40,059 bases of DNA from Chloroflexota bacterium (lineage in GTDB: Bacteria > Chloroflexota > Anaerolineae > Anaerolineales > Villigracilaceae), in NCBI GenBank assembly GCA_026390015.1, contig JAPLGS010000090.1, positions 1-40,059 on the forward strand, read 5' to 3'. The notes beneath the pieces are model-generated. The model saw only the letters and a program-made list of their open reading frames with translations. It was not told the DNA's origin and searched no databases. Positions 366 to 40,059 of this stretch are shown here, piece by piece. Positions within the stretch are counted from its first letter, which is position 1. Each line of letters starts with the position of its first letter. The translations under genes and the position numbers were made by a program.

Positions 366-1307
366 ATGACATCTGACCTGTTACTAAAACAAGCAATGCA
401 AGGCTTTTACCTGGCGCGTCGTGCGGATGGATATAGTCCAGACACGATCCGTCAATACGATTGGGCACTATCACGATGGGCAACATTCACGGGGGATAAA
501 CCGATCAATGCAATCACGATTGATGACGCGCGCAAATTTATTGTCTACCTACAAACTGACTACGGTAATTTGTCGCCTGTAAGTATCTTCCACGGGTGGA
601 AAGCGATACGCGCGTTTTATAAATGGCTGGATACTGAGGGACTGGCGCCCAACGTCATGGTCAATCTAAAAAAGCCGCCATTCCGCGCGTCTGAAATATC
701 TCCACTATCCAACGCTGACATCGACAAGCTGCTGAAGGCGTCAACAACGATCAACCACAAAGATGCTAAAAAGGAATATGACCGCAGAGCTCCACACGGA
801 GAACGCAACAGGTTGCTAATATTATTTTTGTTGGATACTGGTTTACGTGTTGGGGAGTTTTGCAGGCTCAACGTTGAGGATCTAAACATGGATACCTGCG
901 AGGTGTCTGTGAAGCCGTTTCAGTCATCCCGTAAAAGCAAGCCGCGGACCGTGTACATCGGGAAACGTGTGCAAAAAGAATTGTGGCGTTACCTACTCAG
1001 TAGGGATAGAACAATCCAAAGAGATCCATTATTTTTATCGGAGCGGGGCAATCGGATGACGGTTGACTCAATAAATCATTTACTGCTTCGGATCGCAGCC
1101 AGGGCAGGGGTCTCCAATGTTCACCCACATATTTTTCGTCATACATTTTCCATTCAATATATCAGAAATGGGGGCGATATTTTTACGCTTCAAAAATTGC
1201 TGGGGCATGCGTCTTTAGAAATGGTTAAGTATTATTTGCACGTCGCCCAGGTGGACATGGAGTCGGCTCATCGTCGAGCCTCGCCTGTGGATAATTGGCG
1301 ATTATAG
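366..1307 (+). CDS. int: tyrosine recombinase (phage integrase)
   Basis: A 313-aa site-specific recombinase of the XerC/D-lambda Int type. It has an N-terminal SAM-like core-binding domain (about residues 5-95) and a C-terminal catalytic domain. Visible catalytic residues are R161 (TGLRVGEF), a likely K192, H255 and R258 (HPHIFRHTF), H281 (LLGHAS) and the nucleophile Y290 (KYYLHV). The start is ATG 366, with AAAGGA about 12 nt upstream. The gene follows the left att core by 70 bp, as expected for the integrase that recombines attP with the tRNA-Lys gene. In the prophage it lies downstream of the tRNA promoter. It ends 6 bp inside the convergent gene at 1302. One TACTCAGTA site lies in the CDS at 994 and one upstream at 311. 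Confidence 0.96.
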   Translation: MTSDLLLKQAMQGFYLARRADGYSPDTIRQYDWALSRWATFTGDKPINAITIDDARKFIVYLQTDYGNLSPVSIFHGWKAIRAFYKWLDTEGLAPNVMVNLKKPPFRASEISPLSNADIDKLLKASTTINHKDAKKEYDRRAPHGERNRLLILFLLDTGLRVGEFCRLNVEDLNMDTCEVSVKPFQSSRKSKPRTVYIGKRVQKELWRYLLSRDRTIQRDPLFLSERGNRMTVDSINHLLLRIAARAGVSNVHPHIFRHTFSIQYIRNGGDIFTLQKLLGHASLEMVKYYLHVAQVDMESAHRRASPVDNWRL

Positions 1308-23031: not shown

Positions 23032-23142
23032 TTATTCCTCTCTTGCAAAATATGGGACATAAATACAGTCGGCAGGCGCAAGCACCTGTTCGCCATTTAC
23101 GTAGATAATGATCTTCAATTCATCTTCACGCGTAGCGTTCAT
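23032..23142 (-). CDS. small coupled ORF between terminase and portal
   Basis: 36 codons plus stop, MNATREDELKIIIYVNGEQ and onward, ending VPYFAREE. Its ATG overlaps the terminase stop (ATGA) and it ends 4 bp before the portal start, so it is part of a translational relay. It reads as two short strands and could be a mini head-assembly factor. Small ORFs are common between these genes, and family membership is not recognisable. Confidence 0.55.
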   Translation of the reverse strand: MNATREDELKIIIYVNGEQVLAPADCIYVPYFAREE

Positions 23143-24545
23143 CCTTTCTCCTTGCTCTTTTTCATCTCTTCGAGTTGTTTCCGATACATCTCAACCAGAG
23201 CATTGCCATCATCCGTCAGCGCGTTGAATGCGCCCGAAGATGAATCCATAATATCGTCGTGATCAGCGTCTGGTTGGTTGTGCATGTGGTTGAGATAGTG
23301 ATCGTTCCAATCCGCTTCAACCACATCCACATTACCTGCTTCTGCCTGCGCAGATAAGGCCTTCGCGCGCGTGATCTTGTCCTTGCCGCCCGTGCCGACA
23401 GCATGAGCATCCAAACCAGCCAGGAGGGATGCCATACGCGCCGCATCTCTTTTCGACGCTGAGCCTGGCTCCTGCTCCCAACGGATCTTCAGCTTTGCCC
23501 CAAGCATCTTTGCCTTTGCCGCCCACTGCCGGCTAATGTTGACGAAGCGCTTCTCTGTCTCTGCGGGTCCTTGCTGAAAATCAACGCAATCCAATACGGT
23601 AAAGCGTCCATTGTTTTTCACCATGGCTGTCGCCGCGGTAAAATCTGGATCTGGTTTGGCAATCTCTTTTTCGGTAGACGCAAAATCCCAGAACAGCACG
23701 ATCTCGCCGCCTGATGGCATGGCGGGGACGGTCCCAAACCACGCCTTGTTAAAGATGTTGCCCGCGCTGGGTTCGATCTTCCAGTTGCTTTCCAACAGGC
23801 GCTCACGGTCTACCTTGCTTTGCGCCTTCAGGTTGGCAAGATAGCCCGGGTCTTTCTCCATTAGAATTTTGTTGTCGAATAGATTGGCGGAAATAAACGT
23901 TACGCTCTTGGCCGGAATGCCGGGATAATCGATACTCAGTATCTCTGGGGAGTCCGCCCAGATGATCTTGTCATCAATGCGCACGAACCAGCGGATCACA
24001 CCGCAACGATCTGGGATTGCTTTGCCATCCTCTCCGATCCACCAGTCAATGAACTTTGCCAGCCAACCAGGCTGGGGGTTGCACGTGGCACGCACATACG
24101 GACGCACGCCAGACGTGGATCTGTTTCGAGACATCATGTAAAAGAATTGTTTTTCCGTAAATGTTTCGAGTTGGTCAAAACACATCAGCGCAATTTGAGC
24201 GCCGCGCCAGGCATCAAGGTCTTTATCATATTGGATATGGCTAAAGGTGATCCGTCCGCCATCGGGAAAATACCATCTGCGTTCGTTGACATTCGCTTGA
24301 CCATTCAGCAATGGATACAGCTCCATACTGTTATCCCACATGGCGCCTTCCTTAGTGATCTCTGGCATGGTACGGCGAAAGACTACCGCTCCAAAATTCT
24401 TGTTTGATACATGACGAAGGGGTTCAATCAATAAGGCAAATGTTTTTCCCCCGCCAGCTGCACCTCCATAAATTCCAATATCCACCGGAGTGGATAAAAA
24501 CATCTCCTGCTTGCCAGGCTGCGGACGGATGTCGACTGTTGTCAT
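23139..24545 (-). CDS. terL: terminase large subunit
   Basis: A 468-aa packaging motor. The Walker A motif is GGAAGGGKT (residues 27-35). A Walker B-like strand with acidic residue is ALMCFDQLETF. The RNase H-like nuclease domain has acidic residues in IVLFWDFAS, FTVLDCVDF and HDDIMDSSSGAF. This is the Terminase_6/gp17-type organisation. It translocates and cuts DNA at the portal. The start overlaps the small subunit gene by 4 bp. A TACTCAGTA site lies in the EILSI codons (23933). Confidence 0.95.
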   Translation of the reverse strand: MTTVDIRPQPGKQEMFLSTPVDIGIYGGAAGGGKTFALLIEPLRHVSNKNFGAVVFRRTMPEITKEGAMWDNSMELYPLLNGQANVNERRWYFPDGGRITFSHIQYDKDLDAWRGAQIALMCFDQLETFTEKQFFYMMSRNRSTSGVRPYVRATCNPQPGWLAKFIDWWIGEDGKAIPDRCGVIRWFVRIDDKIIWADSPEILSIDYPGIPAKSVTFISANLFDNKILMEKDPGYLANLKAQSKVDRERLLESNWKIEPSAGNIFNKAWFGTVPAMPSGGEIVLFWDFASTEKEIAKPDPDFTAATAMVKNNGRFTVLDCVDFQQGPAETEKRFVNISRQWAAKAKMLGAKLKIRWEQEPGSASKRDAARMASLLAGLDAHAVGTGGKDKITRAKALSAQAEAGNVDVVEADWNDHYLNHMHNQPDADHDDIMDSSSGAFNALTDDGNALVEMYRKQLEEMKKSKEKG

Positions 24546-25090
24546 TTTGGATTTTCCCGCCCGTTATCAGGGATGTAGAAATTGACTGATACCAGGGATT
24601 CGCCATTACTGGTGATGTCCTTGCGATCAATATACTTGCCGTGAACTTTCAATATATCCCGCAAGGCCGCCTGCGCATCATACAGCTCAATTTCCAGTTC
24701 TTGAGTTTCTGAATCCGCGCCGCCCAACTTAAGTTTTGTTGTTGTCTTCTGCTTATATTTTTTTATCAGTTTTGTTAGCCCATTTTGTTGCGCAAACTGC
24801 ATATCAAACTTGCCATTTACATCAACCAATAATGCAATATCCCCGCGTGCTATATCGGATGTCAGTTTCAATGCCTCTTCTGAACTCATGTGAACTTCAG
24901 CAAGCCGCCCTTGAATTTTTTCTTTTATTTCTGATTTGGATAAATTTTCCCATCCAATTTGGTGCGCCGACTTTTCAGAATAACCGGCAAGCAAAGCCGC
25001 GGCTGTGGCATTGAAGCATTTTAGATATTCATCAATGAATATTTGTTGCTTACGCGATAATTTGATTTCGTCTTTTTCTGCTTCACTCAT
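24542..25090 (-). CDS. terS: terminase small subunit
   Basis: A 182-aa DNA-recognition subunit. The N-terminal region LSRKQQIFIDEYLKCFNATAAALLAGYS (helix-turn-helix) is the Terminase_2 signature. The middle is helical (oligomerisation) and the C-terminus LYDAQAALRDILKVHGKYIDR is also characteristic. It selects phage DNA for packaging with TerL, to which it is coupled by a 4-bp overlap. It begins the packaging and head block after a 48-bp gap with a possible promoter. Confidence 0.93.
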   Translation of the reverse strand: MSEAEKDEIKLSRKQQIFIDEYLKCFNATAAALLAGYSEKSAHQIGWENLSKSEIKEKIQGRLAEVHMSSEEALKLTSDIARGDIALLVDVNGKFDMQFAQQNGLTKLIKKYKQKTTTKLKLGGADSETQELEIELYDAQAALRDILKVHGKYIDRKDITSNGESLVSVNFYIPDNGRENPK

Positions 25091-27609: not shown

Positions 27610-28223
27610 TACATACCCCACTGCTCAGCCATTGCGCGGGCGATGCCAGGGAATGTTTTACTTCTTGCGTATCCACCATGACCCGCCTCTGTCCAATGGC
27701 GGAGTTTCACAGTCCCATCTTTTCGAGCGGTTGCGTAAACTGCCTTTGGGTATTCTGTCGCTGTGCGCTTTCCAAACAAATCGTCATGCTTCCAATACCA
27801 TAATTTCGGTAATCCTTTCAGCCATAGGCATGTAGTTTTCAACGCTTCATCTCCAAAAAAATATGGTTGTATGATTTGGTCTGGTTTTCTGTAAACCGTG
27901 TTTGGATAGCCAACAGGATTTTCTATTGCTATTTTTTTGATTGGCGCATTGGCGCAAGCCATAAAAAAGCGCATGGCTTCTTCTCGCAGCTCTGCCCGTC
28001 CTGGTTTATTCCAAACGTGATTAGCCGCATAGCTCAAATAAGTACAAGGCGGGTGCGCTATCATCAAATCCCAACCATCATTTATGATGTCTAAAACGTC
28101 GCCCTGATAATGCGGCAAACCTTTCGCGCCTGGTTGCAAATCGCAGCTCATAGCGTCGTGTCCAAGCGCAATAAATGCGGCGGTCACTTCTTGGCTTTCC
28201 TCACACGCTACCAAAACTTTCAT
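27609..28223 (-). CDS. phage DNA methyltransferase-like protein
   Basis: A 204-aa protein. Its opening KVLVACEESQEVTAAFIALGHDAMSCDLQ resembles a C5-cytosine methyltransferase SAM-binding loop followed by a strand ending in CDLQ. DVLDI, the AHPPCTYLS loop (PPC at 58-60) and the IENPVG block (about 98-104) correspond to motifs IV and VI. The protein is much shorter than standard C5 enzymes and lacks an evident target-recognition domain. It may be an orphan or degenerate methyltransferase protecting phage DNA. It is coupled to Prim-Pol (TAATG). Confidence 0.72.
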   Translation of the reverse strand: MKVLVACEESQEVTAAFIALGHDAMSCDLQPGAKGLPHYQGDVLDIINDGWDLMIAHPPCTYLSYAANHVWNKPGRAELREEAMRFFMACANAPIKKIAIENPVGYPNTVYRKPDQIIQPYFFGDEALKTTCLWLKGLPKLWYWKHDDLFGKRTATEYPKAVYATARKDGTVKLRHWTEAGHGGYARSKTFPGIARAMAEQWGM

Positions 28224-29125
28224 TACAGCACTCCCATTTCCGCCGCCATCATTCTCACTGCCACGGAATCAACTACGCCATGCTGACGGCTGTATAAGTT
28301 GATCGCATCCATTGGCTTCATGTTGCATACCTGGCATCCGTACAATTGCATACGCGTATCAATCCAGGCAGACGGCGATTTATCATCGTGAAACAGGCAT
28401 TTCACTGCCCACCATCTTCCATCGCCTGATGTCTGGACTCGTTCTGAGAACATATTTTCAATGCGCACGGCCTGTTTGACCTTTGTCACGATATCGAGTC
28501 CCAGAGCGACTCCTGACGCGGAATTTGCCACTTCAAACGGGTCATACGCAACCGCTTTTCTGGCCGGCGTAAAGTCAAGCTGTACAGGTGCCTCACATGG
28601 AGCCGCCGCCACGTGTGGAAATAACTCAGTAGGGATTAGCGTGTCTAGGTCATACACTTCAGGAAATTCAAAGTTGAAATTCTCCGCCGTGTAGATCGCG
28701 CCGCTCGGGTGCACAGATCCCGGGCCCACACAATAACCATGCACCTTCACGTCCACGCCGCGGCGCTTCTGATTGGCATAGTTGCCAAACAGCCGTATGT
28801 ACACGTGCGCGCCACGTGCGGACCGCACAATGAACGGGCTACCGTATAGGCCGCGTAAAGTAACAAAGTAAGCCTTCCAAATTTCATACGCTTGCTGATC
28901 ATCAAAGTCAATCATTGCTAAATTACCCCAGCCGGCTACCACTCCGTAGTTGTGCCAGTCAGAGTATAGCCAGTTCATCACGTCGTATTCAGCCGGCAAC
29001 GTGGTCTTGTATTTCTCCCAAGTTCCGCCCATCATGTGGCTGGCCGGCTCTTTGCCACGATGCCGCAGCGGGATCACTGCAATTCCCATTGTCCTAAAAA
29101 GCTGTGCAAACTCTAGTTTTTTCAT
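28223..29125 (-). CDS. primase-polymerase (Prim-Pol) with CHC2-type zinc site
   Basis: A 300-aa protein. The N-terminal AEP/Prim-Pol domain (1-165) opens with GIAVIPL and carries catalytic acids in MIDFDD (D73, D75), RGAHVYIRL (H107) and VGPGSVHPSG (134-142). A C-terminal zinc site (C243, H246, C264, C267 in KCLFHDDKSPSAW...YGCQVC) is that of CHC2 primase zinc fingers. It synthesises primers for phage replication. It lies on the other side of the iteron region from the RepA-like ATPase, so the three form the replication module. An SD (AGGAT) lies 10 nt before ATG 29125. Confidence 0.88.
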   Translation of the reverse strand: MKKLEFAQLFRTMGIAVIPLRHRGKEPASHMMGGTWEKYKTTLPAEYDVMNWLYSDWHNYGVVAGWGNLAMIDFDDQQAYEIWKAYFVTLRGLYGSPFIVRSARGAHVYIRLFGNYANQKRRGVDVKVHGYCVGPGSVHPSGAIYTAENFNFEFPEVYDLDTLIPTELFPHVAAAPCEAPVQLDFTPARKAVAYDPFEVANSASGVALGLDIVTKVKQAVRIENMFSERVQTSGDGRWWAVKCLFHDDKSPSAWIDTRMQLYGCQVCNMKPMDAINLYSRQHGVVDSVAVRMMAAEMGVL

Positions 29126-29149: not shown

Positions 29150-29370
29150 AATAAACTGTTCACTTTTGTGCCTGAACAGTTTATTTTTATAAATTCAGGT
29201 TTTTTCACTTTTTCAAATTTCGGTTGAACAGTTTATTTGTCATTTTCTTTCGTGTTTTGCAAACTGTTTACTGTTCATAAACTGTTCATAAACTGTTCGC
29301 GCACAGTTTCAATAAACTGTTCACTCAGTCTCTCTCTTAAGAGACTGAACAGTTTATTTTGAACAGTTTA
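29150..29370. repeat. iteron array, candidate replication origin
   Basis: The unit is ATAAACTGTTCA or its complement TGAACAGTTTAT. Copies: 29150-29162, 29173-29186 (inverted), 29225-29237 (inverted), a degenerate copy at 29260-29270, two abutting copies at 29277-29288 and 29288-29299, 29311-29323, 29346-29358 (inverted), and 29360-29370 (inverted, overlapping the ATPase stop). Copies 29311 and 29346 flank CAGTCTCT/AGAGACTG, giving a large near-perfect palindrome (29311-29358). The region is A+T-rich and lies between the replicative ATPase and Prim-Pol genes, as expected for an iteron-type origin. Confidence 0.85.
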
Positions 29371-30378
29371 GGGATTGTTTTTTAGATAATCTCTACCTTC
29401 ATCGGTTAGATCGTAAATTGCCATTTTTCCACGTCCGCCAGCGCTTCCTGATGAATTTGTGCGCTCAATAAGTCCCAAACGCGGGTCTGCTATTCTGTAT
29501 ATTGCCCGCTGCGCTTGCGTTGGTGAGCATGTATCAGCGTTGTCTATGATGTCAGCCTTTTCACTTGCACCGTTTACGTTCAAATATCTAAGCACGTATT
29601 CATCCGCTTTGGTTAGGTGAATTTTCTTTCCTGCCTTGCTTCCAGACACAGAAAGCCAAAACATCTTCGGTGTTATGTTCATCATGAAATTAGCTTCAGC
29701 CGTAAAGTCAAGCGGATCTGTGTCTCTTGACTTGACTGTTGCGAATTCAATTATTGACTTTTTGCTTTCACTTTCAACTTTTACTAAAAGGTCGATAGCG
29801 CCTTTTATGGATGTTGATCCTCGGTAGTCATTCTTGCCACCGTTTTTGTTGCTGTGGTGGATTAATAAAATCGCCGCCTGTGTGGCCTCTGCAATTTTGC
29901 GGAGCGCTAAAAATATCGGCTGCACGTCCTTTACTGCGTTTTCATCGCGCCCAGGCATTACATCGGCCAAGGCGTCAATAATTACAAATTTAGAATTTGT
30001 CAGATTTATTGTGTTGGTAAATTCAGCCAGCCAAAACGCATTCCCGAAGTCATACCCAGCAAGCGAATGACAAAACACAGGCACGGTTTCATCGTAGCTA
30101 TGGCCGCGTGCAACGTGCTCCATGCGGTCTAAAATTCTCTTGCGTCCGCTTTCCTCATCAACTATAAAAACATTGCTCTGTGTTGTTTTGAAGTTAAGCC
30201 AATCGGCGCCACGCGCCACACAAACCGCCATATCTAATAATGCCCATGTTTTTTTACTGCCGGCGTCACCGTAGAACACGTTCACACTGCCGGCTGAAAT
30301 GAAATTATCGATAATCCAGGTGATCGGCGGACGGCATTGAAAAGCGTCCTGCATTGATAGTAAAACTGGTTGAGTCAT
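29368..30378 (-). CDS. RepA-like hexameric helicase / AAA ATPase (AAA_25)
   Basis: A 336-aa RecA-fold ATPase. Walker A is GDAGSKKT (37-44), Walker B is KFVIIDAL (130-137), and LLIHHSNK (171-178) plus YRGSTSIKGAIDLLVKV (185-201) is typical of plasmid RSF1010 RepA-like helicases. The C-terminus (about 255-336) is a winged-helix-like domain (LTKADEYVLRYLNVNG and following) that may bind DNA. The gene is directly upstream of the iteron region and Prim-Pol. It would load on origin DNA and unwind it. It starts as ATGA overlap with the 40-aa ORF. Confidence 0.88.
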   Translation of the reverse strand: MTQPVLLSMQDAFQCRPPITWIIDNFISAGSVNVFYGDAGSKKTWALLDMAVCVARGADWLNFKTTQSNVFIVDEESGRKRILDRMEHVARGHSYDETVPVFCHSLAGYDFGNAFWLAEFTNTINLTNSKFVIIDALADVMPGRDENAVKDVQPIFLALRKIAEATQAAILLIHHSNKNGGKNDYRGSTSIKGAIDLLVKVESESKKSIIEFATVKSRDTDPLDFTAEANFMMNITPKMFWLSVSGSKAGKKIHLTKADEYVLRYLNVNGASEKADIIDNADTCSPTQAQRAIYRIADPRLGLIERTNSSGSAGGRGKMAIYDLTDEGRDYLKNNP

Positions 30379-30843: not shown

Positions 30844-30881
30844 TTCAGCTCCATGTATTCGCTGGGTGTGATTGCAATCAT
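30840..30881 (-). CDS. 13-codon ORF bridging two genes
   Basis: MIAITPSEYMELK. Its ATG overlaps the VWA-gene stop and its stop overlaps the next start, both as ATGA. It may only be a translational relay that carries ribosomes across a 34-nt gap; the SD for the next gene (GGAG) lies within it. Confidence 0.35.
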   Translation of the reverse strand: MIAITPSEYMELK

Positions 30882-31435
30882 GCGGTTAATAGCAACGTGC
30901 GGACATCGGTCGCCAATTCTTTGACCTGCGCACTGGTCATGTTTTGACCACCGCTCGCTTTGGCAAGGCGTTTCAGGAAGTCCTGGCCAGCGCCGCCGTC
31001 TGGTCCGACAAATATCGTGTCAATGCGGTTTTTGAATTTCTTGGCTTCGAAGATTGCTTCACCTTCGCTGTCTGGTTCACCGTCGCTGATCACAATAAAG
31101 CGCATGTTGTTGATGTCGGCTTGCTTGGCAAACTTAAGCGCCTTGGCCAAATTGGTCATCTCGCCGAAGTCTGTCGGGATGCCTGCCGGGCAGAAGCGCA
31201 CATCACTGCTGAAGCTCAGTAATGCGAGTTTGCCAGGCATATCTGCTTGCAGTTTCTTAAGTTCCTCGCACGCGACTTCATAACGTGATTTCCCGTTGCG
31301 GGAGTCATTGGCGTGCATACTGCCTGACGTATCGACCAGGATTACAGCATCAGCCGATAAAAACGATTCAGCAATTGACTTGCCTGTTTGTTGTGCTACT
31401 GCGGCAATTGAGCCGGGTACGATTTGAGAGTTCAT
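30878..31435 (-). CDS. von Willebrand factor A (VWA) domain protein
   Basis: A 185-aa single-domain VWA protein. The metal-ion-dependent adhesion site is visible: DTSGS (35-39), a Thr in GEMTNLAKAL, and Asp in FIVISDGEPDS. It is cytoplasmic, since no signal or TM is present. VWA proteins scaffold complexes through a bound Mg2+. It is coupled by ATGA to the preceding short gene and close to a J-domain gene, so it may act with host chaperones or in replication complex remodelling. That link is inference. No MoxR ATPase is present. Confidence 0.88.
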   Translation of the reverse strand: MNSQIVPGSIAAVAQQTGKSIAESFLSADAVILVDTSGSMHANDSRNGKSRYEVACEELKKLQADMPGKLALLSFSSDVRFCPAGIPTDFGEMTNLAKALKFAKQADINNMRFIVISDGEPDSEGEAIFEAKKFKNRIDTIFVGPDGGAGQDFLKRLAKASGGQNMTSAQVKELATDVRTLLLTA

Positions 31436-31602
31436 AGTTTCACCTTTTCATGTTCTGAGTTGAGGATAAATAACAACTTTTCTTTGTAGAGCCACGAGGC
31501 AGAATACTGAGTAGCAATCTTTTCGGCTTCCGCCTTATCCTTTACCGAATACATGTAAAGCGGGGCAGGCGGTAACTCCGTGAGGGAATAAACGATTGTC
31601 AT
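31432..31602 (-). CDS. small hypothetical protein
   Basis: 56 codons plus stop from ATG 31602, MTIVYSLTELPPAPLYMYS and onward. The ATG overlaps the HARP-J stop (ATGA) and the stop overlaps the VWA start (ATGA). The longer frame from 31686 would overlap the upstream gene and is rejected. A TACTGAGTA site lies in its ATQY codons. Function unknown. Confidence 0.6.
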   Translation of the reverse strand: MTIVYSLTELPPAPLYMYSVKDKAEAEKIATQYSASWLYKEKLLFILNSEHEKVKL

Positions 31603-32423
31603 ACCCAGTCCTCTATAAATTTCTTTGCACCAGTCGGCCATGACACAACGAGTGTCTGCCCGGCTGAATTGCGAATATCTTCCCATGCGAAAATCTTTGA
31701 CACGTTGAACACCCCGACTGATTCAATGCCTTCGACCATCATCACGCCACAGCGCAACGGAGTGCGGTATCCATCAGATAAGCGGTCATATGAGCGATTC
31801 GCGCTTTCCTCTTTGCGTAGGCTTTGCTCAAAGGCGAGGCCGGCGTCATATCGATCGCGGTTCTTGCTCAACACATCAAAGGCGTGCTGAATTGCAAGAA
31901 ATTGTTCATTGGCGTTCGGCTCACGACAAACGTCGGGATGCCACTGGCGCACCATGCGGCGATAACCTGACTTGATTTCATCGTCGGTCGCGCCGCGTTG
32001 CACAGACAATACTGAGTAAAAAGTTGGCTGTTCATCCGGACTGGCCGGCGCATCAAAATACGCGCGCAACACCGGCTCTGGAAAAATGGCATTCCAACCA
32101 TCGTTTACCCAGCCATACGCGCTACGGTCATCAGAGCCTCGATCTTTGGTCGCGCCGATGTAACGTACTTCGATGATTTGTGATTTGATGATCGGCTTGG
32201 CGGCGACGATGCTCGGCACCAGCGGTAACTCGTTGAAGTAGATACTGCATAGGTTTTGGATCTTCGCGGCTTTGTTCGCGGCGATTCGCCAGGACTTTGT
32301 TTGCGGGTCGTATCGGCGTTCACCGGCCGGGATGGTTGCCTTGATGTCTGCGACCATGTCCGCATCGTACGGGAATGACAGCAGCAGGTCGTTACCTGAT
32401 TGGATGATTTTGCATTGAGGCAT
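31599..32423 (-). CDS. HARP-like domain fused to a J domain
   Basis: A 274-aa protein with three parts. Residues 10-62 (FPYDADMVADIKATIPAGERRYDPQTKSWRI and following) match the pattern of the HARP domain of SMARCAL1-type annealing helicases. Residues 134-195 are a J domain with the invariant HPD (162-164; YRRMVRQWHPDV), which would stimulate a host DnaK. The C-terminal 75 residues are unassigned. It is in the recombination/replication half of the operon. A likely role is chaperone-assisted remodelling at DNA forks; the fusion is unusual. A TACTGAGTA site is in FYSVLS codons. Confidence 0.82.
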   Translation of the reverse strand: MPQCKIIQSGNDLLLSFPYDADMVADIKATIPAGERRYDPQTKSWRIAANKAAKIQNLCSIYFNELPLVPSIVAAKPIIKSQIIEVRYIGATKDRGSDDRSAYGWVNDGWNAIFPEPVLRAYFDAPASPDEQPTFYSVLSVQRGATDDEIKSGYRRMVRQWHPDVCREPNANEQFLAIQHAFDVLSKNRDRYDAGLAFEQSLRKEESANRSYDRLSDGYRTPLRCGVMMVEGIESVGVFNVSKIFAWEDIRNSAGQTLVVSWPTGAKKFIEDWV

Positions 32424-32425
32424 GG

Positions 32426-32629
32426 TTACACCTTGCGGAGTTCTAGCGCGTCAATCTTCGCCTGCATTACTTCAATCTTGTATTCGAGTTTGCTGATTAC
32501 TTTCACAAGCGCATCAACGTCGTCGGCCAGTCCTTCTTCCGCCCACGTAACACGCGGAGCCTGCGGGTCTGGATTGATGTCGTGATCTGCGTTGTACTGG
32601 GCGTGTATTCTGTTCGTTGTATGTGTCAT
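32426..32629 (-). CDS. small coiled-coil protein
   Basis: 67 aa. A polar N-terminus is followed by a predicted coiled coil (DDVDALVKVISKLEYKIEVMQAKIDALEL). It is 2 bp from each neighbour, so clearly part of the operon. It may oligomerise or bind one of the adjacent proteins. No family recognised. Confidence 0.65.
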   Translation of the reverse strand: MTHTTNRIHAQYNADHDINPDPQAPRVTWAEEGLADDVDALVKVISKLEYKIEVMQAKIDALELRKV

Positions 32630-32631
32630 TG

Positions 32632-33336
32632 TTACACCTTCCTCAGCGTGATACTCGGCTCGCCTTCTTTGCGTGCTTCCTTCAGGAATGGATGGTCATT
32701 GCACCAGGCGTCCATCTTGTCGGTGTTCCATGTGACGCGACCTTTGACATAAACCGCGTGAAAGAATTGACCTTTGACACTTGATCCTGCCGCTTTGACA
32801 TCGGCTTTTATTTCGGCTTCGAGTTTCTTGATGTTGGCATCCACGTCTTGAGCCTTGCCGCGAAACTCAGCCTCAATGTCATCTTTGCGCTGATTGATCG
32901 CCGCGTATACATCGCGGGTCTGTCGGTCAATCTTTGCGCGGATCTCATTCTTGCGGGTGTTGTGGAATTGTTGCTGGCGGTTGCTGTAATCATCCAGTTC
33001 GCTTTTTATGGCGCGCTTTTCCTGCTCCACTTCGCCCATCCTGGAGATGATTTCGGCGCGCTGGCGGTCAAGTTCTGCTAGTGCATCTTTGTATTCCTGC
33101 GGGATGACCACCGACGCGATGCGCTCATTGATCTGCTTTGAAAATAGCGTGATTGAATTTCCATACTCGCTGTCGGCCTGTTCCGCTTCCTTCATTCCTT
33201 CGCTGACGATCTGCTCGATCTCTGCGGGGACTTTCACCTCGTCCAATAATTCGCGCTTGGATAATTCGAGTGCATCTTTCTGGCTGTAAAATTCCGCCAG
33301 TGTGTCAAGTTTCTGTTTGATAATTTCTTCGGTCAT
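32632..33336 (-). CDS. coiled-coil protein with conserved C-terminal domain (Gam-like context)
   Basis: A 234-aa protein. Residues 1-180 are almost continuous coiled coil. The last 48 residues (SVKGQFFHAVYVKGRVTWNTDKMDAWCNDHPFL and onward) form a compact domain found at the end of similar phage coiled-coil proteins. It sits next to RecT, where phages often encode a DNA-end-binding Gam-like protein, but I see no Gam signature. Its start is preceded by AAAGGAG and a structured non-coding region. Confidence 0.65.
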   Translation of the reverse strand: MTEEIIKQKLDTLAEFYSQKDALELSKRELLDEVKVPAEIEQIVSEGMKEAEQADSEYGNSITLFSKQINERIASVVIPQEYKDALAELDRQRAEIISRMGEVEQEKRAIKSELDDYSNRQQQFHNTRKNEIRAKIDRQTRDVYAAINQRKDDIEAEFRGKAQDVDANIKKLEAEIKADVKAAGSSVKGQFFHAVYVKGRVTWNTDKMDAWCNDHPFLKEARKEGEPSITLRKV

Positions 33337-33354
33337 GGTTGTCTCCTTTTATTT

Positions 33355-33681
33355 GTTGCCCTGCCGCTGCTACCACCCGTTAGGTTAAGACCACAGGGTT
33401 ATCAGTCACTACGGCAGGGACTTCTGAAAACGGGCGTCTCGGATGTAAAGCATGTGTTGGTTTTTTAGGATTTTGTCTACCAACCAACGTCCACAGACCA
33501 CGAGACACGCTCCCGTATCATTCGATTGTTGCCCCGCCGCTCCGCATTTACGCTGGATTATTACGGCTGTTTCCCGTACTCACGGCGGGGACTTCTGAAA
33601 CGGGTTGCGGGTTTCTACCGCATCACAGTTGGGCTTCTGCGAGAGGCCTGACTGGTCATTAACCAGCCCCGTATCATTCAA
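33355..33681. ncRNA. two tandem structured non-coding units
   Basis: This 346-bp gap (33337-33682) holds two related units (33355-33525, 33528-33681). Each has an 8-bp closing stem (CCCTGCCG/CGGCAGGG; CCCCGCCG/CGGCGGGG, a compensatory T-A to C-G change), the box ACTTCTGAAA, an ACGGG/CCCGT stem enclosing variable hairpins, and the box ATCATTC. The interior differs in sequence but again forms hairpins (GTCTCG/CGAGAC in unit 1; GCGG/CCGC and CTGGT/ACCAG in unit 2). Strand of the active RNA is unknown; the operon is leftward. No known family matched by eye. Confidence 0.6.
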
Positions 33682-33682
33682 C

Positions 33683-34456
33683 TTATCGCACGGTCACAGC
33701 GGAAAGTTTTTCGCGCACCGCGTCAACTTCTTCCTGCGTGCTGGGGATGCGTCCATCATTGGCCGCGAGAATTGCATCAGCAGGATACTGAGTCAATAAA
33801 TCGTTCAGCGGTGACACATTCACAGGCTCGGGCGTGGCCTCGATCACGTTGCCTTCGGCAGTCAAAGCGACACCGTATGCTTCTGGCATCTTCATCAGCG
33901 TGGTCATGCCGGCGGTAATATCAGGAGCGACTACATCAGCGGCAAAGCCAACAGCACGCCACATGCACATATTTTCTGGATACTTCGCCCAGCCAGAATC
34001 AGGCTTAACAAGTCCAGCCCGGTCCGCGTCGGCCATCGTAAAGCGTGCCGTGTGGGTAAATCCAGTGTTGCGGATCATCGTGCATTCGTAGCCGGTAAAC
34101 TTGCCGGCCGCATCAGCAAGGCGCGTAATCTGAATGTCGCGCATAGATTTGCTACTCAGTAGCAGTGCCATGGCTCCGCGCGGTGTTAGTGACGGTTTGC
34201 CCTGGATAATCTGCACAAATTCAAATGATGCAGTAATGGACAGTCCGATCTCATAGCCTTTCAGCATGATTGCATAGGCTTCTTCCGTGCGCATCACACC
34301 CATGAGGCGACTACGAGCGAGCACCGGCGCCATTCGGTCAAACATATCCAGCACGGACGGAGTGACAAAGCGCTCACTGGATAATTCAATTGCGGTAGTC
34401 TGTTGATCAACTACGGCAATTTCGGTTTCTTTAGTTAGTTCGAGTTTTTTAGCCAT
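33683..34456 (-). CDS. recT: RecT-family single-strand annealing protein
   Basis: A 257-aa phage recombinase. The RecT core is visible: MLKGYEIGLSITASFEFVQIIQGKPSLTPRGAMALL (about 67-102) and WAKYPENMCMWRAVGFAADVVAPDITAGM (about 156-185). It anneals complementary single strands during replication and repair. No RecE-type exonuclease is seen; the adjacent XPF-type nuclease, overlapping by 8 bp, may supply or process ends. A TACTCAGTA site lies in LLLSS codons. Confidence 0.9.
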   Translation of the reverse strand: MAKKLELTKETEIAVVDQQTTAIELSSERFVTPSVLDMFDRMAPVLARSRLMGVMRTEEAYAIMLKGYEIGLSITASFEFVQIIQGKPSLTPRGAMALLLSSKSMRDIQITRLADAAGKFTGYECTMIRNTGFTHTARFTMADADRAGLVKPDSGWAKYPENMCMWRAVGFAADVVAPDITAGMTTLMKMPEAYGVALTAEGNVIEATPEPVNVSPLNDLLTQYPADAILAANDGRIPSTQEEVDAVREKLSAVTVR

Positions 34457-35192
34457 TGGCGGCTATCTCCTTTTCAAATAGTTCAAGTGTTTGGTGTTCT
34501 TCGAGGCCGAGCAGGTTCTTAATATTGCGCCGTAGAGCCACGCCGATCGGAGCGTTTATAGTTAGATCAGTTAGTCCGATCAGCGCGTGGCCGACGTTGT
34601 TATCTGACCAGGTCAAAATATCCTGGACACGTTCAATGCCAACGCCGGGCAGGCTTGCAAGAAATGTCGCCTTGGGCCCGAGAATGTTCGCCGGTCGTGG
34701 CGGTAATAAATTCAGCACATCAGTCCGGGATCTCTTTCCGATTCGCAAAATACAATTTTCGTAATCAGCCGCGCCACCTGCAAAAACGACAAAAACCCCC
34801 ATTTCCTGAATACTGAGTACCGCACCCATAACGGACGAATACGCCCATCCTGTGACGCCGCGCTCAGTAACCACCTTGCCGTTTTTGTCCACCGTGAAAG
34901 GTTCAGTGATCACGAGATACGGCCACGAGGTAATCGGTTTACCGCTTAACTGTTGGTCGTAGCGTTCTTGCGCCATGCGGCCAAGCTGTACAAATAAACG
35001 ATCATCTTTCAGGGAGCCTAGAAAATCTTCCGGGGTCTTGCGTTCTACGAGAATGGTATGGCCATCGTCAGTAACTGCTTGCACATCGCCAGTTTCGAGA
35101 AACGTAACCATGGTCGGCAGTCCGCCAAACTTGAGGCTTTTTACTGAATCGGGTTCGCGGCTATCGATGAGGATTGCTGTTATTTGTGGCAT
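34449..35192 (-). CDS. XPF/ERCC4-type nuclease with helix-hairpin-helix
   Basis: A 247-aa protein. The N-terminal ERCC4 nuclease has IDSREP (9-14), GD (35-36) and the signature VERKTPED (49-56; ERKxxxD). A helix-hairpin-helix (about 175-200; FLASLPGVGIERVQDIL) follows and then a helical tail. This is the archaeal XPF/Hef-type minimal structure-specific endonuclease, which cuts flaps and forks. It is paired with RecT in the same operon. A TACTGAGTA site lies in VLSIQ codons. Confidence 0.87.
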   Translation of the reverse strand: MPQITAILIDSREPDSVKSLKFGGLPTMVTFLETGDVQAVTDDGHTILVERKTPEDFLGSLKDDRLFVQLGRMAQERYDQQLSGKPITSWPYLVITEPFTVDKNGKVVTERGVTGWAYSSVMGAVLSIQEMGVFVVFAGGAADYENCILRIGKRSRTDVLNLLPPRPANILGPKATFLASLPGVGIERVQDILTWSDNNVGHALIGLTDLTINAPIGVALRRNIKNLLGLEEHQTLELFEKEIAANG

Positions 35193-37382: not shown

Positions 37383-37412
37383 GAGTATCGTATCTTTTTC
37401 GTGAATATTCGT

Positions 37413-37418
37413 TATAAT
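37413..37418 (+). promoter_or_regulatory. -10 box of the repressor, leaderless transcript
   Basis: TATAAT at 37413-37418 puts the expected start at about 37425, which is the A of the repressor ATG. No convincing -35 is present. A leaderless mRNA like that of lambda cI from PRM is likely, perhaps with activation by a bound regulator in the upstream repeats. Confidence 0.6.
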
Positions 37419-37424
37419 GAATTT

Positions 37425-37778
37425 ATGAGCTTCAAGGAATTTTTGTTCGAAAAGTTTTTAGACTGGCAAAGAGAAGTAGGGCGTAAATCTCAAAAGGATT
37501 TTGCCGAATATCTTGGAGTTCCCCCTACGTCTTATTCGACTTGGATAAATACAAACTCAAAGCCTGGCGATGAGTACATTCCGATTCTTGCAAAAAAATT
37601 AGGAGATGAGGTTTACGATATTTTAGGCAGAGCGCGTCCTTTATCCCCCGTAAAGCAAAAGTTATTCAACTGGATCAACAACCTGTCAGAAACAGAAGCC
37701 GAAAAACGAATAAAAGAAATTGAATCCGCCCAACAAACTAACCCGGTGCTAAGCGGGAAACCTAAAAAAGCAAAATGA
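37425..37778 (+). CDS. HTH (XRE/Cro-CI type) repressor
   Basis: 117 aa from ATG 37425. The N-terminal HTH is SQKDFAEYLGVPPTSYSTWINTNSKPG (about 23-49), a classic XRE fold; the C-terminus is helical and charged (ETEAEKRIKEIESAQQ). There is no S24 peptidase domain, so induction would not be by RecA-type self-cleavage. It is divergent from the early operon and coupled (ATGA) to a membrane protein. It most likely maintains lysogeny by binding the repeats in 37335-37400. Confidence 0.85.
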   Translation: MSFKEFLFEKFLDWQREVGRKSQKDFAEYLGVPPTSYSTWINTNSKPGDEYIPILAKKLGDEVYDILGRARPLSPVKQKLFNWINNLSETEAEKRIKEIESAQQTNPVLSGKPKKAK

Positions 37779-38367: not shown

Positions 38368-40059
38368 TTATCCACCAAAAATTAATTTGAAAATGTCGCT
38401 GAAGAATTTCTGGATCTTCTCCAATACTGTCTGAGTTTCTGGTTCTGTCTGCGGTATGGCAGTCGGAGTTGACGTCAGAGTGGCTGTCGGGATGGGGGTT
38501 AGGGTAGCGGTGATGGTTGGCGCAATTGTGAGCGTGGCGGTTGGCAAAAGCTCGCGATAAATTCCAGGCGCTGCCCAGAAAACGTGATTGCCTGGATCTG
38601 TATTCAATGGTGTTACATCTAAAATAAATTTGATCCTCTGACCCGTTAGGGTGCTGATATCAATATCGATTTGTGTGTATCTCTGATCGAAGAATTCTCC
38701 AACAGCCCAAAGATCCACTACGGCGTTTGAAGAATCCTGATAGCTGACTCGGAAGATGGCTGAGCAGGTTATAGAATTTGATTCACAGCTTGCGATGGCT
38801 CGGATGTGATCACCGTTCTGTACTAAAAATTCAGGATAGATGCCTTTTATGGATCCATTTAAATTATCTGGAACGATCATGATCGCCGGATTGTTAAGTG
38901 CGGTGCCATCTTCCAGAGTGGGGTTTGTGATCAGATTAATGAATTTCTGCGCTTCACTACCTGTCCCTGGACATGGTTGCTGGATATTGTTACTTAACCA
39001 TTGCGCCGAACAAATTTCTGAGATGAAGTCATACGCGAGAGTTTCCAATTGGCGCGGGGCGAATGGGGTTACTGTGGTTGGTAATCCAGTTTGAGTGGAC
39101 ACTGGCGAAGGTATTGGGGTATTGGTTGGGGCTAATATCACATTCACTTGAACCCATATCTGACCAGCTCCTGATGAACCAAGCCTAAATTGCTTTCCAG
39201 TATTGTCTTCAAAGGCCCAGTTGCCTCTATATCTGCCGGGCGCTTCGGGGGCGGTCAGCTCAATGGATATATCAATCGTTTCAGAGGGAGCGACATTATT
39301 GGGAAGTGTTATGGAGCCCACTGTATCCATTCTGTCTCCGCCGATAAAGACGAATTTATACGAAGTTGTCCATGTGCATGTGCCGATGTTCTTGAATCGC
39401 CATGTCTTGGTGAATTTTTCAGTTGCGTTGACAGTGGTTCCATCGGGCACCGTTATATCTGAAACGAACCCAGCGCGGTTGCATCCGGGGATAAGCGTGG
39501 CAGTTGGAAGAGGTGTGAACGTGAATGTTGTGGTTTGAGTAAGCGTTTGCGTGAAGGAAGGCGTGAAGGTGTGCGTGAGACTCGGTGTGCGTGAGGGGGT
39601 TTTTGTAGCGCTCGGGCGCGGCGTATACGAAGCGGTGATGGTAGCCGTTGGTCGTGGTGTACGGCTTGGAATATTCGTTGTAGTAGGTAATGGTTTACGC
39701 GTGGATGTGGATGTAAATGTAAATGTGATTGTCGGCCTGAGAGTAGCTGTATTGGTCGGCGTATTGGTCTTGGTGGGACGCGGCGTAAAGGTAGGCGTGA
39801 ATGTTTTCGTGGGACGCGGTGTACGCGTCGGAGTTAAAGTCGCGGTCGGCAACGGCGTGCGCGTGGATGTGACTGTAAATGTGACGCTAGGTGTAAATGT
39901 CGGAGTAAATGACGGTGTGATGGTTGGAGTGTAACTTGGCGTGAACGTGATTGTAGCCGTGGCCGTGTTGGTCGGCCTGAGTGTAGCTGTATTGGTCGGC
40001 GTATTGGTCTTGGTGGGACGCGGCGTAAAGGTAGGCGTGAATGTTTTCGTGGGACGCGG
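38368..40059 (-). CDS. host surface protein with Thr/Pro stalk and Ig-like NBR1-type domain (partial)
   Basis: The frame is open beyond the window end, so the start is off the window. The visible N-terminal part is a long TPTxTPRPTKTFTPTFTPR-type repeat region typical of extended, possibly glycosylated stalks. A Cys-linked beta domain (FTKTWRFKNIGTCTWTTSYKFVFIGGDRMD to GQIWVQVNV) has the NBR1-central-domain-like pattern common in Anaerolineae proteins. A second globular region follows, and the C-terminus is helical. The DNA repeats with 240-bp period (39731-39819 and 39971-40059, one mismatch). It lies outside the phage. Confidence 0.85.
   Translation of the reverse strand, partial: PRPTKTFTPTFTPRPTKTNTPTNTATLRPTNTATATITFTPSYTPTITPSFTPTFTPSVTFTVTSTRTPLPTATLTPTRTPRPTKTFTPTFTPRPTKTNTPTNTATLRPTITFTFTSTSTRKPLPTTTNIPSRTPRPTATITASYTPRPSATKTPSRTPSLTHTFTPSFTQTLTQTTTFTFTPLPTATLIPGCNRAGFVSDITVPDGTTVNATEKFTKTWRFKNIGTCTWTTSYKFVFIGGDRMDTVGSITLPNNVAPSETIDISIELTAPEAPGRYRGNWAFEDNTGKQFRLGSSGAGQIWVQVNVILAPTNTPIPSPVSTQTGLPTTVTPFAPRQLETLAYDFISEICSAQWLSNNIQQPCPGTGSEAQKFINLITNPTLEDGTALNNPAIMIVPDNLNGSIKGIYPEFLVQNGDHIRAIASCESNSITCSAIFRVSYQDSSNAVVDLWAVGEFFDQRYTQIDIDISTLTGQRIKFILDVTPLNTDPGNHVFWAAPGIYRELLPTATLTIAPTITATLTPIPTATLTSTPTAIPQTEPETQTVLEKIQKFFSDIFKLIFGG
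39731..40059. repeat. long direct repeat in the Thr/Pro stalk
   Basis: 39731-39819 and 39971-40059 are identical over 89 bp but for one base, 240 bp apart, and encode the same TNTPTNTKTPRPTKTFTPTF pattern. The second copy runs to the window end, so the repeat may be longer and more copies may follow. Such arrays vary in number between strains by slippage or recombination. Confidence 0.8.

Follow-up and report, generated by a model that had tools for sequence, protein, structure and literature searches.

Classical iteron plasmids have tandem iterons of about 20 bp in the same orientation. In phage P4 the alpha protein also includes a Toprim primase, and its helicase is of another type than the one considered in this study. 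P4 alpha binds the repeats of its origin with a winged helix, as described in PMC4234260. The same text describes RSF1010, in which binding, unwinding and priming at stem-loops are shared out among RepC, RepA and RepB', and Sulfolobus plasmid pRN1, whose ORF904 combines a primase, a helicase and a C-terminal winged helix and whose origin, a stem-loop 3' of the replication gene, is required for replication (PMC4234260). The iterons of SaPI Rep and SCCmec Cch2 lie immediately 3' of the respective helicase genes and are bound via a C-terminal domain, which in the case of Cch2 was shown to bind direct repeats (PMC7581432). The same paper groups Cch (DUF927) and Cch2 (Primase_Cterm/D5) with two SaPI Rep helicases (PMC7581432). 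In pWTY27 of Streptomyces, RepA, called a hypothetical protein, was shown by gel shift and footprint to bind the array next to it, in which 8-bp repeats run in both orientations and a long inverted repeat is present; RepB is a predicted primase/polymerase and replication is bidirectional (PMC3583192). The "c" gene names and coordinates in that text suggest that the array lies 3' of repA, and pWTY27 may be an experimental precedent, likened to the AAA_25 helicases by description only. GP46 of Lactococcus phage F13 is a RepA-family, AAA_25-like 5'-3' helicase of a phage, a type shared with the helicase reported here; no origin array is described in the available part of PMC8965321. Two other proteins were rejected as precedents: the mycobacterial prophage "RepA", which is a different HTH initiator with no identified iterons (PMC7157519), and PLE RepA, which is of the RepA_N type (PMC7145576). 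No described AAA_25-iteron system was found in the open-access literature.

The locus of this study lies in a window of 40,059 bp, which is a whole contig. The window contains a tyrosine integrase, an HTH protein that matches CI weakly, both terminase subunits (genes at 23139-25090), a Mu-F-like protein and a portal match that falls short of the curated cutoff, and is therefore most likely a temperate integrating phage. Its relevant features are given below.

29151 to 29371, no strand: iteron array, proposed replication origin, from repeat counts and from arrays of other sequence at the equivalent place in relatives
29152, 29278, 29289 and 29313, plus strand: exact copies of TAAACTGTTC
29174, 29226, 29347 and 29361, minus strand: exact copies of TAAACTGTTC
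29180 to 29224, no strand: A+T-rich stretch within the array (15% G+C at 29180-29219), candidate unwinding element
29311 to 29358, no strand: inverted iteron pair around an inner hairpin, with 16-nt arms that are 94% complementary and 16 nt apart
29150 to 29185, no strand: second inverted iteron pair, with 13-nt arms that are 100% complementary and 10 nt apart
29368 to 30378, minus strand: RepA-like AAA_25 ATPase (P0001, 336 aa) by Pfam and structural matches, putative helicase
29377 to 29610, minus strand: C-terminal winged helix of the ATPase (residues 257-334) by predicted fold, proposed iteron-binding domain
28223 to 29125, minus strand: Prim-Pol with CHC2-type zinc ribbon (P0002, 300 aa) by Pfam, proposed primase of the same module
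366 to 1307, plus strand: tyrosine integrase by family match
37401 to 37778, plus strand: HTH protein with a weak CI-repressor match by family match

Upstream of the ATPase gene, positions 30878-35192 encode a vWA protein, a DnaJ-domain protein, a RecT-like annealing protein and an ERCC4-type nuclease, likely a recombination or repair set. A Thr/Pro-rich repetitive gene occupies 38368-40059 at the right end of the contig. A second copy of the final 50 bases lies some 240 bp further upstream, possibly because the contig terminates in a repeat. PADLOC gave nothing convincing.

The array is the sole dense repeat cluster in the 40 kb. Among 795 window tiles of 350 bp, all seven with at least five copies of an 8-mer overlap the array, and the next best tile has four copies. 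In a scan of the window the decamer TAAACTGTTC has eight exact copies, and none occurs outside the array at up to one mismatch; degenerate copies with two mismatches lie at 29260, 29267 and 29301. The last iteron overlaps the TAA stop codon of the ATPase gene. An initial annotation of this sequence had placed the array between a RepA-like ATPase gene and a Prim-Pol gene, with iterons in both orientations and a high A+T content, and these descriptions were borne out: the array spans 29151-29371 between the ATPase stop codon and the Prim-Pol gene, Pfam identifies the neighbours as an AAA_25 ATPase and a Prim-Pol, each strand carries four exact decamers, and the G+C content is 31% compared with 48% for the window. 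The nine copies reported there apply to the octamer AAACTGTT, with nine copies inside the array, but not to the 12-mer ATAAACTGTTCA, which has six exact copies and eight at up to one mismatch, every copy within the array. The 48-bp palindrome that had been described is present at 29311-29358, but it is an interrupted one, because as single-stranded DNA it folds into an inner stem with a 4-nt bulge (z -5.2; whole region z -8.3). The inner hairpin at 29325-29348 has the stem TCAGTCTCT/AGAGACTGA and, on the plus strand, the loop CTCTTA. GC skew had been proposed as a check on the origin and gave no support for the array, the cumulative minimum being at 34-35 kb.

The ATPase has only AAA_25 matches in Pfam (PF13481, E 5.6e-31) and carries the motif GDAGSKKT (Walker A). 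In its predicted structure (mean pLDDT 86) the RecA core precedes a winged helix, a domain that was also modelled alone (pLDDT 87). The top structural matches of the core in the predicted model are 1nlf, 1olo and 1g8y, all RSF1010 RepA, with TM-scores of 0.71-0.75 on the target.

This locus resembles each of the systems above in part. First, as in SaPI Rep and Cch2, the iterons lie directly downstream of the helicase gene and a C-terminal DNA-binding domain is predicted, but the helicase is of the RecA-fold RepA/AAA_25 type and not of the DUF927 or D5/Primase_Cterm type given for those proteins. Secondly, set beside P4 alpha, the window protein joins the helicase to a predicted winged helix, and the primase is a separate Prim-Pol, which is fused in some relatives. 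Third, RSF1010 as described shares the RepA helicase fold (by the predicted model), the iterons, the origin hairpin and a separate primase. RSF1010 uses a separate RepC initiator; here the predicted winged helix is fused to the helicase, and a Pfam scan of 29 window proteins, a set that covers part of the ORFs and in which many proteins match nothing, recognised no replication-initiator or plasmid Rep family. Fourth, pRN1 as described has an SF3 helicase, no iterons and a 100-nt stem-loop. Lastly, unlike classical iteron plasmids, the array is made of irregularly spaced units of about 10 bp on both strands. The term "plasmid-style origin" used in the initial annotation is therefore loose, since the anatomy is closer to SaPI rep-ori or P4 alpha than to classical tandem-iteron plasmids. 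We read the array as an origin that the winged helix would recognise so that the helicase loads itself, a way of working known from SaPI Rep, SCCmec Cch2 and P4 alpha, here with a helicase of the RecA fold. The parts are known; no system found in the open-access literature unites them as proposed here, with a winged helix fused C-terminally to a RepA-like helicase of the RecA fold and a putative origin of iterons and hairpin 3' of its gene.

Relatives of the helicase were surveyed for arrays at the equivalent place. The survey contained 143 loci with an ATPase ORF, which formed 74 clusters at 60% identity, and 71 of these had at least 150 bp of 3' flank; the other three were dropped. Ten loci that repeated other loci (L001, L002, L005, L013, L015-L019 and L043) were left out beforehand, as was L004, a false match in another gene. 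Repeated 8-mers in 350-bp flanks were compared with first-order Markov shuffles, with 100 shuffles behind each p-value for control flanks and 300 for the others. Arrays at p<=0.01 were found in 45 of 71 3' flanks and in 1 of 68 5' flanks; the 3' flanks of other ORFs at these loci served as controls, and 10 of 374 had an array. These fractions describe this sample only, because the loci were gathered by similarity to the window ATPase and the largest search, the viral one, contributed 80 of 371 relatives. At least four copies of an 8-mer were present in 44 of 71 3' flanks, 1 of 68 5' flanks and 7 of 374 control flanks. Because many control flanks are coding, a background of 350-bp tiles away from the ATPase end was added, in which at least four copies occurred in 18 of 1713 tiles, and in 10 of 341 tiles that were mostly non-ORF. 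In the 44 arrays with at least four copies, the distance from the stop codon to the first repeat copy ranges from -13 to +58 nt (median 8.5), the +58 extreme coming from L006, where the flank was measured from the end of an ORF in a shifted frame, and 35 of these arrays use both orientations. The ATPase relative in L006 (G052:C79, 1300-2420) is apparently split, with core and winged helix in different frames.

The iteron sequences differ widely among the array-bearing relatives. The closest relative, an IMG/VR contig (L003), has both genes and seven of the eight decamers, and its array differs by 7 substitutions in the first 217 aligned columns. Distant relatives have other repeats at the equivalent place, for example AGTTGTGAA in L026 and GACTGTTTCCC in L008, and further divergent repeats lie behind the ATPase gene in L030 and L034 (CGTTTGGCA) and in the Caenibius plasmid (CTTCCGCA). 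Chloroflexota account for five of the six relatives from genome contigs. In L010 a repeat array of CAACTTTGT/CAACTTCGT units occurs twice 3' of the ATPase gene, at 2550-2640 and 2735-2830, and a similar gene start, ATGACCGACCT, comes after each copy, giving the impression that the array was duplicated together with the gene start.

No array at p<=0.01 was found in 26 of the 71 clusters. These results include L007, with a winged helix 27% identical to that of the window, and L151, a 44% relative that looks array-like by eye; degenerate arrays escape the 8-mer test. Inspection by eye covered 33 flanks. A C-terminal tail of at least 55 residues was present in 83 of 85 proteins tested and the two shorter-tailed proteins had no array, a grouping without statistical power.

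The genes around the array vary. Ten array-bearing proteins were scanned, and all ten have AAA_25. In front of it, three have a Prim-Pol (fused in L008, L154 and L160), three have a primase-associated domain (PriCT_2 or NrS-1 polymerase HBD), one has Toprim (L164) and three have no primase family. The gene 3' of the array was scanned for 39 of the 45 array-bearing clusters, giving Zn_ribbon_DnaG in 10, Prim-Pol in 2 and three small-terminase families with one member each. When clusters with and without an array were taken together, 55 neighbours gave Zn_ribbon_DnaG in 15 and Prim-Pol in 4; these 55 remained from 65 after ten spurious-looking ones were removed by hand, and in L020 the neighbour was replaced by the annotated gene. 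A gene with the motif [KR]WGVGRL recurs after the array in several phages, for example in L053 (4438-5112), L061 (4140-4931), L050 (4180-4851) and L100 (4220-4912), with no obvious family in the 3'-neighbour tallies. Thus, as repeat sequence, primase type and next gene all vary, the array is tied to the helicase gene and not to Prim-Pol.

This bears on the possibility that the iterons serve as an operator for Prim-Pol or for the whole operon, to which a repressor or the ATPase itself would bind, with no role in the start of replication. The array does come immediately before the Prim-Pol start codon (29125), a short dyad core, AAC-W-GTT, is present in each iteron, and initiator proteins often autoregulate too. 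However, the next gene varies among relatives as given above, and arrays are found at the 3' end of the ATPase gene, not the 5' end, even in the three loci with Prim-Pol fused ahead of it. In addition, a search that covered sites of the sigma-70 type found none in the array. Since the array is linked to the helicase gene, an operator for Prim-Pol is unlikely as its main function, and an origin bound by the helicase is favoured.

Hairpins are a second recurrent element of these flanks. Hairpins with a GC-rich stem and an AT-rich loop, such as CCCC-CTTTA-GGGG, were counted with a strict pattern and occurred in 42 of 71 3' flanks, 13 of 68 5' flanks, 48 of 374 control flanks and 160 of 1420 shuffles, and in 31 of 45 flanks with an array and 11 of 26 without. 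A best-stem statistic (p<=0.05) gave 34 of 45 with an array, 13 of 26 without and 17 of 68 5' flanks; it was rejected as confounded by the inverted iterons, and the strict pattern, itself only partly free of this confounding, was relied on instead. The window hairpin has a weaker stem, and its cluster (L003) scores none by the strict pattern, yet it folds well. The enrichment of such hairpins, together with one terminator-like match in the array, would fit a transcription terminator or RNA structure at the end of the ATPase gene as the main role of array and hairpin. We regard this as quite improbable for several reasons. The match is on the plus strand while the ATPase and Prim-Pol genes are on the minus strand, and shuffles average 1.9 matches. 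Also, a terminator has no need of a repeated unit in both orientations, and by eye T-rich tails are missing after most of the printed hairpins.

The initial annotation had found no obvious protein to bind the iterons and start replication, and had named the winged helix as a candidate. The recurrence of arrays directly behind the helicase gene points to the helicase itself as the putative starter protein. Covariation was analysed in the 44 clusters with at least four copies at p<=0.01. Iteron similarity has a Spearman correlation of 0.13 with winged-helix similarity and 0.17 with core similarity, and the partial correlations are 0.084 (p 0.019) for the winged helix given the core and 0.133 (p 0.004) for the core given the winged helix. 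Covariation specific to the winged helix was thus not supported, as the core tracks the iterons at least as well. The winged helix is proposed as the obvious iteron-binding domain from its predicted fold, which the covariation does not prove. The earlier interpretation, an origin with the winged helix as binder, is therefore only partly supported: the arrays in 45 of 71 clusters and the predicted winged helix lend it strong comparative support, while binding and replication are putative, the iterons covary at least as well with the core and "plasmid-style" fits loosely.

The winged-helix fold also allows for a partition (centromere-like) site, with the domain in the role of TubR or AspA. A search of the winged helix with Foldseek alone yielded nothing at E<=0.001 (no E-value below 0.002). 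A second structural alignment matched TubR (Z 10.9), AspA and the pNOB8 centromere-binding protein, and TubR-type proteins bind repeats. The same alignment, however, matched MarR proteins equally well (up to Z 11.8), the domain belongs to a protein with a RepA-like helicase core and not a partition motor, and the window phage carries an integrase, so that partition appears very unlikely. A packaging or recombination site can be given hardly any credence. Small-terminase families do follow the array in a few relatives, but the window terminase genes are more than 4 kb from the array, and what located the arrays in the survey was the 3' end of the helicase gene and not the vicinity of terminase genes.

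The reading that we consider probable is that the array is the replication origin of the phage, with the winged helix of the ATPase binding the iterons, the helicase loading itself and Prim-Pol priming. After induction, the RepA-like helicase would bind the iterons of about 10 bp on both strands via its C-terminal winged helix, and rings of its RecA-fold domains would form on the array. Opening of the A+T-rich stretch next to it would follow, the helicase would load itself and unwind, and the neighbouring Prim-Pol would prime, perhaps at the hairpin thus exposed. The array, its genes, the predicted folds and the recurrence of arrays 3' of this helicase gene are what the data show, and every step from binding to priming, as well as their order, is inferred by analogy with the known systems.

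A broader proposal is more tentative, and we would not yet favour it. AAA_25/RepA-like helicases with a C-terminal winged helix could be a large, overlooked class of self-loading initiators in phages and phage-plasmids, each with its own origin 3' of the gene. In such a class the iterons would diverge freely with the protein, the GC-stem/AT-loop hairpin would be the start site for the primase, and the primase (Prim-Pol, PriCT_2 type or Toprim) would be swapped at will. If this is true, one gene-plus-origin cassette does what RSF1010 spreads over RepA, RepC and ssi. Also, if origins sit directly 3' of RepA-like helicase genes, they could be read from many genomes; to our knowledge, a replication origin has yet to be assigned in many phages. 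Escherichia phages such as Envy and Rhizobium phage 16-3 would be ready laboratory systems for testing this class.

Among named phage and plasmid records, 6 of 18 have an array at p<=0.01, and four of the 18 (L020-L023) are also in the survey. The six are Promineifilum breve plasmid III, Caenibius p1, Rhizobium phage 16-3, a Manatee Spring phage (ct3Oc712), a Klebsiella plasmid that carries a capsid gene and Idiomarinaceae phage 1N2-2. The six actinophages among the 18 (four Gordonia phages, Mycobacterium Vincenzo and Nocardia NTR1) have no array at this threshold, nor do two of three further records, a Campylobacter plasmid and a Lactococcus phage (L168), which is a phage other than F13 and by eye has no winged-helix-like tail. 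When all named records are taken together, 14 of 21 are without an array at this threshold. Escherichia phage Envy has six repeat copies (p 0.003), and its AGCGGGACA repeats lie 3' of a helicase-primase gene (L169, 3640-4220). The stretch that holds the Envy array was matched in 155 phage records, and in 144 of these the match covers at least 80% of it; this is a count of the stretch and not of the repeats. In Rhizobium phage 16-3 (L154, 1349-3850), thirteen copies of GCGTGACA lie behind the Prim-Pol/AAA_25 fusion gene p101.
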